Shown here piece by piece: positions 1 through 5,769 of a DNA stretch of 64,000 nucleotides. This stretch comes from an uncultured Eubacteriales bacterium. Its GTDB lineage: Bacteria; Bacillota; Clostridia; Lachnospirales; Lachnospiraceae. Each line of letters opens with the position of its first letter. The stretch's first letter is position 1. The DNA is taken from positions 1 through 64,000 of the forward strand of contig CASFBK010000001.1 of the NCBI GenBank assembly GCA_949292785.1. The letters run 5' to 3'. The notes under the pieces are model-generated. The model worked only from the letters and a program-made list of their open reading frames with translations, did no database searches and was not told the DNA's origin. The translations under genes were made by a program, and so were the position numbers.

Positions 1-39
1 GAATATATGAAAGGACACACAGAGAAGCGGAGCTTTTGG

Positions 40-76
40 CAAGTTAAAACGGGGAGAAATTTCTCATTTTAACTTG
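40..76. repeat. Inverted repeat, possible hairpin
   Basis: A 10-base arm, CAAGTTAAAA at 40-49, is repeated in inverted form as TTTTAACTTG at 67-76. A second palindrome, GAGAAATTTCTC, sits between them at 54-65. No T-run follows, so it is not a standard terminator. It could be the end of an upstream gene region, an operator or an RNA hairpin. Nothing else is supported between 77 and 198. Confidence 0.4.
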
Positions 77-198
77 TACTAAATCTTGACAGAGGACCAT
101 GAAAATTACGCAAAGGATTAAGTAGAGCATTTAGATAGACTAAAGTAGTGTGAAATTATGGGTTTACAATTTGTATATTCATTTTTTTATAACTAATA

Positions 199-228
199 TT
201 GACATACCACCCTGTGGGGTGGTATAAT
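199..228 (+). promoter_or_regulatory. Promoter with palindromic operator in the spacer
   Basis: A perfect -35 box TTGACA (199-204) and a perfect -10 box TATAAT (223-228) are separated by 18 bases. The spacer is filled by a near-perfect palindrome, ATACCACCC-TGTG-GGGTGGTAT (204-225), a 9-base arm each side of a 4-base centre. A G/C-rich tract flanked by TA ends, placed between the boxes, is the layout of CsoR/RcnR-type metal-sensing repressor operators. That family link is inferred, and no such regulator is in view. The promoter would drive the gene at 281. Confidence 0.7.
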
Positions 229-280
229 AAAATCATAGTAAAGGAAACGAAACAATAAGCTAAAAATAGGAGGAAAAAGA

Positions 281-535
281 ATGAATAACATAGTGAAAAA
301 GGCATATGAAATGCAGGAAGAAGAATACAAGGGATATATCCCAGAATTAGAAGAAGGGGAAATATGCGAGATTAATGATGTATGGGATGGAAATGGAGAT
401 ATTAAGGAAATAGGAACATCTTATAGTTATCAACTTACAGATACAGATTGGATAAACTATGAATGGGAAGTATTAGAGGAAAAAGAAGAAGAATTAGATA
501 CGGTAATTAAAATAAATAAAATTGAGTTGTTATAA
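281..535 (+). CDS. Hypothetical acidic protein, 84 aa
   Basis: Unrecognised small protein. It starts at ATG behind a good ribosome site (AGGAGG, 8 bases before the start) and is the first gene after the promoter at 199-228. The product is very acidic, with Glu-rich stretches near both ends, and has aromatic residues (Trp, Tyr) scattered through the middle. There is no signal peptide or membrane segment. It ends 11 bases before the next gene, so the two are probably co-transcribed. Similar short acidic proteins are common in conjugative elements and prophages, but no function can be assigned. Confidence 0.6.
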   Translation: MNNIVKKAYEMQEEEYKGYIPELEEGEICEINDVWDGNGDIKEIGTSYSYQLTDTDWINYEWEVLEEKEEELDTVIKINKIELL

Positions 536-546
536 GGAGAAGAATA

Positions 547-1554
547 ATGATACAACAGGCAATAGAAATGATTGGATCAGATAATATTGAGAACGTGGCT
601 TTAAATTGCCATAAAGCCATGCGTGGGTGTTATGTAATTGTTTCCGATAATAGGGATTACAAGATTATAAATGAAAGGAGGGTAGACTTTAATTCAAAAT
701 ATGCGGGAATGGATTTTTATAGTTCACTTATTAGTGTTAATAAGCCAATCGCAAGCAAGCTGATACAGAGCAATAACTATTTTACATTTTTTTGCAGAAA
801 CACAGAAAAATTGACCAGTGAAGATATAGAAAAATATTATGAGAAGCTGGAGATTCCAGAAAAATATAAATGGTTCTGTGAATGGATAAAAGACAATATA
901 AAAAGATTGGGAAAAGAGCATAAAGGGGAAATTATAAAGGTATTTTTTTCGGGAACTCGTGAAGAATATAGGAAACTGGGGATGAAATATTGGATGGAAA
1001 AAGCTATTTCCTATACAAAATATAGTAATGAATTAGGTGCACCGTATGGAATATCCGTGAGCGCAAAAAAACCATATTCAATATCGAGAGTATCTGCACC
1101 TCTTTATACAAAAGAAGAATGTCTGAAAGTAAAATTTTTTTATGATATATTAAAAGGGCTTTTAAGAAGGGGATATAATTATCTTTATATTGACGATAAA
1201 GGTATTTACCCGGCAAATAAAGATATTCCTCCAACAAAACACAGGATACTTGGTGGGATTTTTTTTGCATTTACAATGGATTCTAAAGGACAGATAATAA
1301 TACAAGATATGGAATCTGTGATAAACTACAACAGGTTTTTAATTGAAAATAGAAAAGAAAATGAAACAGGAAAGAACAGGATAAGGGAGATAAGAGAAGA
1401 AAAGGGAATGAGTAGAGCTGAATTAGCAAGAAAATCTGGGGTTCCACTTCGTACTTTGGAAAATTGGGAATATCAGATAAAACAGCCTACTGATGTAAAG
1501 CAACTGGATAAAGTGGCGAGAGTATTAGAGGTACTAATAGAAGATTTGATTTAG
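547..1554 (+). CDS. Hypothetical protein with C-terminal XRE helix-turn-helix
   Basis: A 335-residue protein in two parts. Residues 1 to about 275 match no family I recognise; the region is rich in Lys, Tyr and Phe. Residues from about 279 to the end form a lambda-repressor-type (XRE) helix-turn-helix: IREIREEKGMSRAELARKSG is followed by a recognition-helix segment with RTLENWE. The domain sits at the C-terminus, whereas small phage repressors carry it at the N-terminus. The start ATG has the ribosome site AAGGAGA. The layout suggests a DNA-binding protein whose N-terminal half senses or acts on something, possibly controlling the element; that is inference. Confidence 0.65.
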   Translation: MIQQAIEMIGSDNIENVALNCHKAMRGCYVIVSDNRDYKIINERRVDFNSKYAGMDFYSSLISVNKPIASKLIQSNNYFTFFCRNTEKLTSEDIEKYYEKLEIPEKYKWFCEWIKDNIKRLGKEHKGEIIKVFFSGTREEYRKLGMKYWMEKAISYTKYSNELGAPYGISVSAKKPYSISRVSAPLYTKEECLKVKFFYDILKGLLRRGYNYLYIDDKGIYPANKDIPPTKHRILGGIFFAFTMDSKGQIIIQDMESVINYNRFLIENRKENETGKNRIREIREEKGMSRAELARKSGVPLRTLENWEYQIKQPTDVKQLDKVARVLEVLIEDLI

Positions 1555-1651
1555 TTCGGCTTCACAAATAACAGTATAAATGGAATAAATTACCAGTGAA
1601 AGGTAAATTATGGAGGTGTATAATTAAAAATAAGGAAGGAGTGAATGATAT

Positions 1652-2062
1652 ATGTACGATATTAGAAACCTAAAAAAAGGAGATATATTTTATGAGGTTT
1701 ACGAAGGTTCGACTATATTGAAATGTAGAGTGACGGGAGAGAAGGTAAAAAGTAAATCTGAACCGCCTGTAGAAAATATGGTAGTAGAATGGAAAACAGT
1801 GTGGGATAAAAGAGAAGAATTTTTTAGGACAGGATTAAAAGAACCGGCAGAACATGAGTATTATTTTGACAATGAAAAAGAGGCTAGAGAATATTATAAT
1901 AAAAGTATTGAAAAGTTAGGAGAAGGGCTTGATAATATAGAAATTTTATTGCGACGGCTATATGAAAAAGCATACGGAGAAGATAATACAATGGAGAGCT
2001 TTCTTTTTGCTATGGCGATAGAAAAATACATAGGAAGTTTGAAAGAAAAAAAGGATGTTTAG
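1652..2062 (+). CDS. Hypothetical protein, 136 aa
   Basis: Unrecognised soluble protein starting at ATG behind GGAAGGAGTGA. The N-terminal third is probably a small beta-barrel (KKGDIFYEVYEG, then KCRVTGEK). The C-terminal half is charged and helical (EAREYYNKSIEKLGEGLDNI). No signal peptide, transmembrane segment or metal-binding motif is visible. It lies between the XRE protein and a cysteine-rich micro-ORF and uses the same A/T-rich codons as its neighbours. Function unknown; likely accessory cargo. Confidence 0.55.
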   Translation: MYDIRNLKKGDIFYEVYEGSTILKCRVTGEKVKSKSEPPVENMVVEWKTVWDKREEFFRTGLKEPAEHEYYFDNEKEAREYYNKSIEKLGEGLDNIEILLRRLYEKAYGEDNTMESFLFAMAIEKYIGSLKEKKDV

Positions 2063-2143
2063 GTGTATTGACACAAGAATTACCTTATGTCAAAATATAT
2101 ATGAAATAGTTGTCATGGATAATATAAAGAAAGTGGTGAAAAA

Positions 2144-2305
2144 ATGAATGCACCAGTCAATAAAAAATGTGAAAAATGTACAGAATTTATAGGAGGGCAG
2201 AAGTGTCAATGTAAAACATGTGCAATAAATGATATTTGTGAAATGGCGCAGGATGAGAATTGCGCTATAAATCTGGTATGTCAGAGATATGTGGAAAGAA
2301 GATAG
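2144..2305 (+). CDS. Small cysteine-rich protein, 53 aa
   Basis: A short reading frame starting at ATG 2144 and stopping at TAG 2303-2305. The product has 8 cysteines in 53 residues, at positions 9, 12, 21, 23, 26, 32, 40 and 46. The N-terminal part reads CEKCTEF then KCQCKTC, a spacing suited to zinc or iron-sulfur binding. The upstream ribosome site is weak (AAGTGGTGA). The cysteine regularity and the fit between the neighbouring genes argue for a real gene. It could be a small zinc-ribbon or metal-chelating protein. I do not recognise the family. Confidence 0.5.
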   Translation: MNAPVNKKCEKCTEFIGGQKCQCKTCAINDICEMAQDENCAINLVCQRYVERR

Positions 2306-2326
2306 AATAAGGTTGGAGGAATTTTA

Positions 2327-2536
2327 ATGACGAAGAAAGAAGCTGCTGTGATAGAAACATATACGGGAATAGCAATGTTATCTGGAGAGAATAGAGCGAT
2401 AGTAGATAATTACCATGAAGAATTAATGGGAAGAAAGATATTTACACATGAATACGGTAATCCGGAGATGCTGAAAAAGTTAAGAGAACTAAGTAAGACA
2501 GAATTTATGGAAATATGCAAAAACTTGACAGATTAG
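2327..2536 (+). CDS. Small conserved protein of mobile elements, 69 aa
   Basis: A 69-residue protein starting at ATG behind GGAGG. The sequence begins MTKKEAAVIETYTGIAML and contains a motif around residues 33-45 (EELMGRKIFTHEY). From memory this pattern recurs in small proteins of Firmicutes prophages and conjugative elements, where no function is established; no search was possible. It is the last gene of the accessory block and is followed at once by a strong terminator. Confidence 0.6.
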   Translation: MTKKEAAVIETYTGIAMLSGENRAIVDNYHEELMGRKIFTHEYGNPEMLKKLRELSKTEFMEICKNLTD

Positions 2537-2539
2537 AAA

Positions 2540-2575
2540 AAAATAAAAGTCACATTCCTGTGACTTTTATTTTTG
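2540..2575. terminator. Bidirectional terminator
   Basis: A 15-base perfect stem (AAAATAAAAGTCACA with its complement) and a 4-base TTCC loop, with an A-run on the left and a T-run on the right. It can end transcription from the accessory genes on the + strand and from the cotJ genes on the - strand. Confidence 0.85.
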
Positions 2576-2593
2576 GGTTTATTATGGATAACA

Positions 2594-2800
2594 TCAGCGC
2601 GCAAGCTCTTCCGTTCCGATATCGGTAAGCAGCCCGGCAACTTCTTTGTAAGGCATGGTATAACGCTGGGACAGATAACGCATAGATGCTGCCAGCTCTC
2701 CATCCGGACCACCGAACTGACTGATAATGACCTGTGCTATCTGCGGGTTAGTCTGAGTAATATTTACCGGATATTGTAATCGTTTTTCATAATTCCACAT
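2594..2800 (-). pseudogene. cotJC: Truncated spore coat protein CotJC (N-terminal third)
   Basis: The ATG at 2800 overlaps the cotJB stop (TAATG) and has a good AAGGAGG site inside cotJB. The 68-residue product starts MWNYEKRLQYPVN and contains GGPDGELAASMRYLSQRY and LLTDIGTEELA, the standard N-terminus of CotJC, a manganese-catalase-like coat protein. Family members are about 190-200 residues. Here the frame stops after GTEELAR, where others continue with a His-containing helix. Most metal ligands and the C-terminal two thirds are missing. The break coincides with the edge of the AT-rich accessory block, so an insertion is the likely cause. The fragment is unlikely to be functional unless the insert excises. 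Confidence 0.8.
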
Positions 2801-3075
2801 TAGCAGTAACCTCCTTCCCAAGGCATAGGCTGGGTAGACCACAGCCATTTCTGATCCGGCATGGCGGTGTCTATGGTAAGAGGTCCGTAAAGCTGTTCAT
2901 ATTCCGCTAATGCTCTGGTACGTGCCTCACGAAAATGGTTAAAGTAGGCAATCGCATCCTGATCCGTAGGATGGGTGTCCAGATAAAGAATAATATCATT
3001 TACAGCAAAGCTTACCATATTAATCCATTGAAATAATTTAATCTGTTCCATTTGATTTCCTGGGGTTCCTCTCAT
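2800..3075 (-). CDS. cotJB: Spore coat protein CotJB
   Basis: Product of 91 residues with the CotJB signature: FAVNDIILYLDTHPTDQDAI, then YEQLYGPLTID and a Trp-rich end (QKWLWSTQPMPWEGG). CotJB is a structural inner-coat component of the endospore, made with CotJA and CotJC. I start it at ATG 3075, which overlaps the cotJA stop as ATGA and has GGGAGG nine bases upstream. A TTG three codons earlier is in frame but lies too close to that ribosome site. The 1-base junction with cotJC shows translational coupling. Confidence 0.9.
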   Translation of the reverse strand: MRGTPGNQMEQIKLFQWINMVSFAVNDIILYLDTHPTDQDAIAYFNHFREARTRALAEYEQLYGPLTIDTAMPDQKWLWSTQPMPWEGGYC

Positions 3076-3356
3076 CGTGGACAACCTCCCTTCCCATAAA
3101 ATGGTTTATTTAATTCCGGGAAGATAGTTCCGTATTGAAGCGCTTTGTCTGGCTCATAGACTTCACGGAAATATTGCCACGGAACATATGCCATAGCTAC
3201 GGGCATATCTGATAGTGGGTCAGCGTTCCTGTTGCAGGAGCGGGGCATAGGAGAACGCATAGCAGCAGTGCGTGGTCTCTGGTAAGGCGCAGGCTGAATC
3301 GGTGTGTTGTTATTACAGCCGCATTCACTGGTAGGTGTATAATTACAATTTCCCAT
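3072..3356 (-). CDS. cotJA: Spore coat associated protein CotJA
   Basis: A 94-residue protein. The last 40 residues carry the CotJA core: MAYVPWQYFREVYEPDKALQ, then GTIFPELNKPFYGKGG. The N-terminus is a low-complexity, Cys/Asn/Pro/Arg-rich extension. CotJA is the first protein of the cotJ operon and is needed for assembly of the coat layer that includes CotJC. The start ATG has AAAGGA eight bases upstream. I could not identify a confident sigma-E promoter in the 190 bases upstream. The operon shows the host makes spores, or descends from a spore former. Confidence 0.9.
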   Translation of the reverse strand: MGNCNYTPTSECGCNNNTPIQPAPYQRPRTAAMRSPMPRSCNRNADPLSDMPVAMAYVPWQYFREVYEPDKALQYGTIFPELNKPFYGKGGCPR

Positions 3357-3469
3357 GATGGTATCCTTTCATATTTCGTTGTTTATATATAAATATGAAA
3401 AAAAGAAAAATGTGTTATCAATGCATAAAAAGAGAATATTCCATATCGTATTTTTATGCAGAGTTTCTA

Positions 3470-3797: not shown

Positions 3798-5769
3798 GGT
3801 AGGTTTTGTAGGCAATCCAAACTGTGGAAAGACTACACTTTTTAATGCATATACGGGAGCAAATTTAAAGGTAGCCAACTGGCCCGGAGTTACGGTAGAG
3901 CGAGTAGAAGGAGAGACTGCTTATAAAGGACAACCATTAAAATTAATTGATTTGCCCGGAATATACAGTCTTACTTCTTATTCCATCGAAGAAAAAGTAT
4001 CACGAAAATGTATTATGAATAATGAAGTAGATGTCATTATCAATGTGGTAGATGCATCTGCTTTGGAAAGAAATCTTTATTTGACCATGCAGCTTTTGGA
4101 ATTAGGAAAGCCTGTGATTCTGGCATTAAATATGATGGATATTGTAGAAGAACGGGGAATGGAAATTGATTTACATCGTTTGCCGGAAATGCTTGGTGGA
4201 ATTCCGGTGGTTCCGGTATCTGCAAGAAAACGAACCGGGCTTGACGTATTGATGCATGCGGTAGTCCATCACTATGAAGAAAAGCATAAACCGGATGTGG
4301 TACGGTATCAGAAATATTTGGAAGAAAAGATTGCAGTGCTGGCACAAAAAGTAGAAGAAACCTATGGAATAAAAGAAAATCAGCGGTGGTATGCAATTAA
4401 GCTGTTGGCAAATGATGAGGAGATTCAGAAGGAATATCCCATTGATGATAGTGAAATACTGGACCGCAGCTATGAAAAGGATATTATCAATCAAAAATAT
4501 GATTACATAGAGGAAATCATAGAAGATACCTTGTTTTACAAATCGGAAAAGTCTGCTTTTACCGATAAAGTAGACGAAGTGCTCACCCATCCATTTTGGG
4601 GCATGCCTATTTTTTTCGGTGTTATGGCAGTGGTATTTTTCCTGACCTTTTTTGTGGGAGATGCATTAAAGGGTGTATTTGAAATTGCACTGGACAATAT
4701 TTCTAATGGAGCCTTGCAGCTGTTAGAGCAATTAAAGGTAGCACCGTGGCTGACTTCTCTGATTGTAGACGGAATTATTGCCGGAGTAGGCGGTATTTTA
4801 ACCTTTTTGCCGAACATATTCATTTTGTTTCTGGCGTTAGCATTTTTAGAGGACAGCGGGTATATGGCAAGAGTTGCCTATGTGATGGACGGATTAATGG
4901 GGCGTTTAGGGTTATCCGGAAAAGCATTTCTTCCGATGGTATTAGGGTTTGGATGTACCGTTCCGGCAATCATGGCAACCCGTGCACTGGAAAAGGAAAA
5001 GGACAGAAGAAGAACCATTCTTATTACGCCATTTATGTCCTGTTCTGCAAGACTTCCGATTTATGTACTATTTGCAGAGATGTTTTTTGGAAATTATGCT
5101 ATGTTAGCAGCCTTTTCCATGTATATCATCGGAATGGTGGCAGCAATCGTGGTAGCCCTTGTGATTCACAGGGTAGAGACTCATACTGCACATCAAAATT
5201 TATTGATAGAGCTGCCGGAGTATAAGACACCCAATGCCAGAACAATCGCCGTATATGTGTGGGAGAAGGTAAAGGATTATCTGACTAAGGCGGGAACCAC
5301 GATTTTTGTAGCCTCTATTATCATCTGGTTTTTATTAAATTTCGGTATACATGGTATGGTAAGCGATGTATCTGACAGCTTTGGCGCTATCTTAGGACAT
5401 TGGATGGAACCGATTTTAGCCCCGGCAGGATTGGGGATGTGGCAGATAGGAGTAGCATTGATTTCCGGTATTTCTGCAAAGGAAGTAGTTGTGTCCAGCT
5501 TCTGCGTTCTGTTTGGAATCGGAAATGCCAATTCTGCTGCAGGAATGATGACGTTGACCAGTCAGCTTGCAGAGGTAGGATTTGGACCGCTGAATGCGTA
5601 TTGTATGATGATATTTTGTCTGTTATATGTGCCCTGTGCAGCAACCATCGGAACCATAAAAAAGGAGACATATTCCTGGAAGTTCACGTTGAAGATGATA
5701 TTATTTCAGATTTTGACTGCATGGTGCGTTTCCACATTAGTATATCAAATCGGGTCACGTTTGATATAG
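3784..5769 (+). CDS. feoB: Ferrous iron transport GTPase FeoB
   Basis: A 661-residue inner-membrane Fe(II) transporter with an N-terminal G domain. Visible GTPase motifs: G1 GNPNCGKT (10-17), the G2 threonine at 37 in WPGVTVE, G3 DLPG (56-59), G4 NMMD (116-119) and a G5-like SARK near 148. A helical GDI region follows. From about residue 265 on come several hydrophobic segments, including two gate-type repeats (GYMARVAYVMDGLMGRLGLSG; GISAKEVVVSS). It is shorter than the E. coli protein (773) but usual for Firmicutes. The start ATG lies within feoA behind GGAGG. Uptake of ferrous iron suits an anaerobe and the iron-rich hydrogenase encoded next. Confidence 0.97.
   Translation: MEAIRVGFVGNPNCGKTTLFNAYTGANLKVANWPGVTVERVEGETAYKGQPLKLIDLPGIYSLTSYSIEEKVSRKCIMNNEVDVIINVVDASALERNLYLTMQLLELGKPVILALNMMDIVEERGMEIDLHRLPEMLGGIPVVPVSARKRTGLDVLMHAVVHHYEEKHKPDVVRYQKYLEEKIAVLAQKVEETYGIKENQRWYAIKLLANDEEIQKEYPIDDSEILDRSYEKDIINQKYDYIEEIIEDTLFYKSEKSAFTDKVDEVLTHPFWGMPIFFGVMAVVFFLTFFVGDALKGVFEIALDNISNGALQLLEQLKVAPWLTSLIVDGIIAGVGGILTFLPNIFILFLALAFLEDSGYMARVAYVMDGLMGRLGLSGKAFLPMVLGFGCTVPAIMATRALEKEKDRRRTILITPFMSCSARLPIYVLFAEMFFGNYAMLAAFSMYIIGMVAAIVVALVIHRVETHTAHQNLLIELPEYKTPNARTIAVYVWEKVKDYLTKAGTTIFVASIIIWFLLNFGIHGMVSDVSDSFGAILGHWMEPILAPAGLGMWQIGVALISGISAKEVVVSSFCVLFGIGNANSAAGMMTLTSQLAEVGFGPLNAYCMMIFCLLYVPCAATIGTIKKETYSWKFTLKMILFQILTAWCVSTLVYQIGSRLI

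Follow-up and report, generated by a model that had tools for sequence, protein, structure and literature searches.

The skin element in sigK of Clostridioides difficile has a constitutive recombinase, CD1231, and a directionality factor, CD1234, that carries the mother-cell control (PMC5025042). SPbeta interrupts spsM of Bacillus subtilis, vfbin interrupts spoVFB and vrin interrupts spoVR (PMC4191935), gin interrupts gerE (PMC5595907), and yin interrupts yabG of Clostridium botulinum, with a 14-bp repeat, inverted repeats at its ends and an excised circle that was demonstrated (PMC10747680). Among interrupted heterocyst genes such as nifD, 10 of 87 contain multiple elements, with up to four in nifD (PMC4874684). 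In C. difficile R20291 a CotJC-like catalase gene of 678 bp, called a bacterial gene, lies downstream of attR of the phi027 prophage (PMC11222575). The subject of this report is a mobile element inserted in cotJC of an uncultured Eubacteriales bacterium of the Lachnospiraceae (assembly GCA_949292785.1, 30 contigs, 3.65 Mb; hereafter G000), found at the left end of a stretch of 64,000 nucleotides (the window) whose base 1 is base 1 of contig C1 (CASFBK010000001.1), together with similar splits of cotJC across the Clostridia.

The cotJC elements resemble the C. difficile skin element in that they lie in a sporulation gene, probably one of the mother cell, with a large serine recombinase that stands directly beside the 3' part and has no mother-cell promoter beyond chance. 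They differ in their target, cotJC instead of sigK, and in comprising many elements, lineages and sites as against one; excision and the directionality factor were demonstrated in C. difficile, whereas the cotJC elements are known here from sequence. SPbeta, vfbin, vrin and gin, which are reported to excise when the cell sporulates, likewise interrupt sporulation genes, but different ones and in different hosts; neither cotJ nor cotJC appears in the main text of either paper cited for them. The yin element is also a serine recombinase element in a clostridial sporulation gene, but represents one strain and one site, and cotJ is absent from the text of that paper. Heterocyst genes are comparable as genes of a terminal cell type that are cut at several fixed positions, although in another phylum, form of development and set of genes, and because of this precedent multiple splitting alone is not new to biology. 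The phi027 prophage is located at a cotJC-like gene, which is adjacent there and not split. A search of part of the literature turned up no description of an element within cotJC. A skin-like intervening element is of a known kind and multiply interrupted genes are known from heterocysts; the apparent novelty lies in cotJC as the target, in how many sites and lineages are involved and in how widely the splits occur.

In the window, the cotJC 5' part (2594..2800, minus strand) is open for 68 codons (2800 down to 2597) and ends ...DIGTEELAR directly before a stop (2594-2596); its product matches positions 1-68 of 284 of the Pfam profile Mn_catalase (PF05067, E 3e-21). Upstream lie whole cotJB (2800..3084, minus strand, PF12652) and cotJA (3072..3356, minus strand, PF11007), and the gene was identified as cotJC by its manganese catalase domain within a cotJABC cluster. 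The GC fraction was 0.316-0.323 in the four 1-kb intervals starting at 1, 501, 1001 and 1501 and 0.379-0.455 in those starting at 2001 or later, up to 8000; a preliminary description of this DNA had the frame stopping after GTEELA where an AT-rich block starts, which the coordinates and the drop in GC confirm. Searching the whole of G000 with Mn_catalase gave exactly two matches, the 5' part on C1 and a 3' part on contig C11 (C11:87063-87470, same strand as the 5' part; profile positions 64-198 at C11:87111-87476). Because this 3' part lies on the same strand and is the sole other match, the break in cotJC is an att junction and no chance stop.

An 8-bp att core, GCAAGCTC, is common to both junctions (window 2601..2608 and C11:87463-87470). 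On its element side in the window stands a 13-base attachment-site arm, ATTATGGATAACA (2581..2593), whose exact inverse, TGTTATCCATAAT, is found on the element side at the other element end (L007:4484-4496). Recombination at the direct repeat of GCAAGCTC would restore a cotJC frame of 199 codons (joined computationally), and the gene so joined is 93% identical to an intact gene of the genus. The 3' part is adjoined by an intact frame for a large serine recombinase of 545 aa (C11:87496-89133) with resolvase, recombinase and zinc ribbon domains (PF00239, PF07508 and PF13408, each at or above cut-off) and a match to the integrase family phrog_95 (PHROGs, E 3.5e-96). The empty site was found in a single-contig relative (G005), in which a whole cotJC lies between the same neighbours in the same order (C11 left, C1 right); since both flanks stand together there around one intact gene, C11 and C1 were taken as neighbours. 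The proposal of the preliminary description that an integrated element interrupts cotJC is upheld by these results. It had proposed looking for the 3' part on the same strand to the left of the window, and this part was located on C11, as C1 starts at window base 1; of the serine or tyrosine recombinase expected, the former was found; and the core expected near 2590-2602 exists, just to the right of that guess. The contrary outcome it had named, relatives with the same short cotJC but no insertion boundary, is not what G005 contains.

The left 2.6 kb of the window (1..2600, low GC) is one end, the right, of a mobile element inserted in cotJC at codons 65-67, the recombinase end being on C11 (C11:87471-102888), which brings its size to some 18.0 kb or more (15.4 kb from C11 and 2.6 kb from the window). 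Inverted repeat copies identical at 105 of 108 positions (the first 99 exactly) occupy window 1..108 and C11:102781-102888 (L007:19781-19888), that is, the facing ends of C11 (right) and C1 (start), inside the element. This repeat probably accounts for the contig break, and the assembly may lack sequence that lies between the two copies.

Among 29 genomes of the genus, 28 had a cotJC match in the Mn_catalase search, and in 17 the gene was located in two or three pieces. Both halves of a split near codon 65 were found in 15 of these, none of which contained a second cotJC; the other two, G007 and G028, were split near codon 175 with the tail elsewhere in the genome (the G007 junction itself being unread), and G004 and G006 had both splits and so three pieces each. 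Only one side was found in three more (G011, G017, G022), seven genomes had an intact gene (G001, G002, G005, G009, G014, G016, G020), G018 had a lone fragment containing a stop and G024 had no match. Where both codon-65 halves lay on one contig, they were separated by about 18 kb (G015), 33 kb (G003), 40 kb (G006), 72 kb (G004) and 80 kb (G025). Two elements at site 2B share an ORF of 639 aa (L019:11459-13378 in G025, L021:5796-7715 in G012), presumably a ribosomal-protection (tetracycline resistance) protein.

Beyond the genus, Mn_catalase matches were found in 152 of 250 genomes of the family; 37 odd-looking genomes were re-searched and the pieces of 33 fetched, splits near codon 175 being detectable only among those re-searched. 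At least 28 family genomes besides G000, of at least 28 other genera, contained two or more cotJC pieces that fit together, a rate to be taken as rough since the family denominator includes other manganese catalases. The pieces meet at codons 29-32, 60-68 or 133-136 (the middle piece of G221 was not found). One side only was present in G085, G201, G235 and G255, and cotJC of G039 was cut by a contig edge; G333, with overlapping matches side by side, was left out of the count, and G065, also with two side-by-side matches, was set aside as a frameshift. In G192 and G176 a full-length Mn_catalase gene is present in addition to the split cotJC as a back-up copy. In G088 the 3' part occurs twice, in near-identical form and with a spacing of about 3.5 kb (L121:1164-1586 and 4704-5126), as if an insertion had duplicated the attachment region.

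In the class, 136 of 196 genomes matched, 26 candidates were re-searched and 10 fetched, and in all 10 the pieces meet at the same codons as in the family genomes; several junctions have short shared runs, and in G441 the overlay is blurred. Three pieces each were found in G394, where they lie within 16 kb of the one contig, and in G428; G441 and G306, also single contigs, are split as well. Other families of the class are affected too: G414, which belongs to the same order but a different family, has four pieces on three contigs. Of 21 viral loci, 10 had a cotJC match. In viral contigs L162 and L164 codons 63-136 lie between a site-2A-like and a site-3-like recombinase, and in L173 and L174 a piece starting at codon 30 lies between a site-1-like and a site-2C-like recombinase. 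The two large serine recombinases of L162 are convergent, with a 222-bp cotJC piece between them (L162:9968-13653), and a tail protein is encoded in one flank, which gives at least one of the neighbours the look of a prophage. In sum, cotJC is a recurrent insertion target across the class Clostridia for several recombinase lineages in four regions of the gene.

These four regions (six cores) encode the conserved motifs FGGPDGE, DIGTEELAH, DLAAEQKAR and HFQRFGEG, which we take to hold metal ligands, and there are genes with two or three insertions. The alignment of CotJC to manganese catalases of known structure spans residues 4-177 (6j42) and 1-175 (1jku). The simplest reading is that integrases come to rest where the DNA is most conserved. 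A quick tree of 48 recombinases (each at least 400 aa), with long-branch warnings and with site labels set by eye, grouped by cotJC site, with 15 label changes against a shuffled mean of 31.3 and none of 200 shuffles as low. Single branches are formed by site 1 (2 rows, support 100), by site 3 (6 rows, support 100) and by site 4 (2 rows, support 99), the ten site-2A rows fall inside one branch of 13 (support 100) with three rows lacking a site label, and site 2C has four rows (support 92); site 2B required five label changes, two of which are due to second recombinases of elements already in the tree. When the recombinases at 13 junctions of the class genomes were compared with the site representatives, the best match was to the site in question in 11 cases; the two misses were site 1 in G394 and in G428. 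Recombinase lineage therefore largely follows cotJC site. Relatives of the G000 recombinase in L051-L061 had no cotJC piece nearby in the stretches examined, so this recombinase family probably uses other targets besides cotJC.

After joining, 38 of 43 genes were 198-213 codons long and without a stop, an openness that is partly built in since joins were made in the register of a reference gene. G125, G139 and G087 were longer and G194 and G126 shorter (the 5' end of G126 is at a contig edge), and the join in G269 is imprecise. Shared runs at 62 joins had a median of 5 bases against a shifted-control mean of 2.5; 41 exceeded the 95th percentile of their own control, and the other 21 had a short run. 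Serine integrases need just two shared bases. As a control, these 250 family genomes were also searched for spoIVA, a sporulation gene longer than cotJC, which gave 161 matches (158 over cut-off), with more than one match in four of the 161 (G125, G133, G219, G232); sigK was over cut-off as one match in 27 of the 29 genus genomes. Within the genus, split cotJC is as conserved as whole cotJC, with a median whole-gene dN/dS of 0.022 for both split and intact pairs, as obtained from 73 of 120 and 14 of 21 pairs, respectively, with synonymous sites near saturation.

The explanation we consider probable is that skin-like elements of several lineages interrupt cotJC and leave it in the mother cell. 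During sporulation, the recombinase would cut the element out and so rebuild cotJC in the mother cell, aided by a directionality factor whose production is confined to that cell; the mother cell would die, and the spore would inherit the interrupted gene with its element. The gene would be a safe home for the element because it is needed, if at all, only in the terminal mother cell. The data suggest that joined cotJC is made only in spore-making cells through excision of the element, a possibility that the preliminary description had raised, and mother-cell excision gains weight from the conservation of the split gene and from the frequency with which the gene is split elsewhere. Since G000 has whole sigK and spoIVA genes, sporulation of this organism is plausible. 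A sigma-K-like promoter was exact before cotJA in 16 of 17 genus genomes examined; the exception was G000, where a near match (3384..3418, minus strand) falls short of the strict pattern.

In the left part of the G000 element there were four sigma-K-like matches (two overlapping) against 2.5 expected, no sigma-E-like match against 0.2 expected and seven SpoIIID-like boxes against 2.8 expected; in the right part none of the three was found. A gene of 67 aa with a KIxIHDD motif occurs in four site-2A elements (G000, L007:7376-7579; G008, L028:8531-8716; G031 and G055, L108 and L111), and its product had no match in 50,697 phage records; it is a candidate early gene or directionality factor. A 63-aa helix-turn-helix (HTH) gene is common to G000 and G008, with weak matches in two other loci. 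No clear mother-cell promoter was found on either gene.

Alternatively, cotJC may merely be a conserved landing site: elements would break the gene permanently, the cell could do without the coat enzyme, and insertions would come and go before the two halves can decay. Several results count for this reading or against mother-cell excision. Type B recombinases are nearly identical between species in which cotJC is saturated at synonymous sites, so type B insertions may be young, without time to decay. The excised circle, searched for as the type B attP pattern in 29 assemblies (other types were not searched), was not found, nor was a directionality factor identified, the only candidates being small genes common to site-2A elements. 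Of 37 recombinases, one had a sigma-K-like promoter (0.96 expected by chance) and none a sigma-E-like one (0.38 expected), although this null neither supports nor refutes excision because the C. difficile recombinase is constitutive too. The joined gene of G194, at 185 codons and 43% identity, appears degraded, and cotJC fragments with stops are present in G018 and G020. Moreover, 98 of the 250 family genomes are without any Mn_catalase match, and the phenotype of C. difficile catalase mutants is mild (PMC11222575). Permanent breakage is nonetheless unlikely, given that conservation within the genus is equal for split and intact genes, that the frame is kept even in pieces as short as 30-40 codons (G192, G139, G394 and G428), and that the site-2A recombinases are of old date, having diverged to about 40-45% identity from one genus to another, while the surrounding gene has not decayed in most cases.

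The open frames kept in both parts might also be read as separate polypeptides that assemble into a working enzyme. This is very improbable, since the cut places vary, several genes are in three or four pieces, some of 30-40 codons, and the 3' parts at the junctions listed show no conserved start for separate translation. An artefact of assembly or binning, which the G000 parts on different contigs and the many draft genomes among the relatives could suggest, can be practically dismissed, as junctions lie inside contigs with recombinases alongside, G394, G441 and G306 are single contigs, and G005 has an empty site.

In the window, the G000 element encodes five ORFs, all on the plus strand: 84 aa (281..535) and 136 aa (1652..2062), both without a Pfam or PHROGs match; 335 aa (547..1554), with a C-terminal HTH regulator domain (HTH_3, E 1.2e-9) and matches to phage regulator families (PHROGs); 53 aa (2144..2305), without a Pfam match; and 69 aa (2327..2536), a DUF7736 protein (PF24875, E 1.3e-9) related to the function-unassigned phage families phrog_13999 and phrog_23870. 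The element proteins scanned included one SSB-like protein, one ParA, one ParB-like protein, two HTH regulators, a cation P-type ATPase, a TerD-domain protein and a PspA-like protein (below cut-off). No phage head, tail or packaging genes were among them, the scan covering a subset of the ORFs of an element with an assembly gap. On C11 the P-type ATPase is followed by three TerD-like ORFs (one scanned) and the PspA-like ORF (L007:14551-19691), an unusual stress cargo for a gene-intervening element. The G000 and G008 elements share the recombinase (75% identity), the 63-aa HTH gene (74%) and the 67-aa gene (76% over 46 aa), with an additional weak repressor match (36%); as the G008 element is incomplete as well, this number of shared genes is a lower bound.

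The sporulation intervening elements of the papers cited here each affect one gene in one or a few species, whereas cotJC is a target common to many spore-formers. The cotJC insertions offer natural replicates for how elements come to target terminal-cell genes, for the order of several excisions in one gene, and for whether such elements control spore quality and transmission, and they yield serine integrases for which lineage tells the target site. In split genomes, gene callers will list cotJC as absent or truncated. On balance, though with less assurance than for excision in the mother cell, we lean toward a broader view in which the cotJC gene of the Clostridia comes in mobile pieces. Six or more integrase specificities would have converged on the DNA of its conserved enzyme motifs, up to three at once, so that the coat enzyme would need several separate mother-cell excisions; such bacterial DNA splicing may act as a gate on the oxidative protection that gut spores have.

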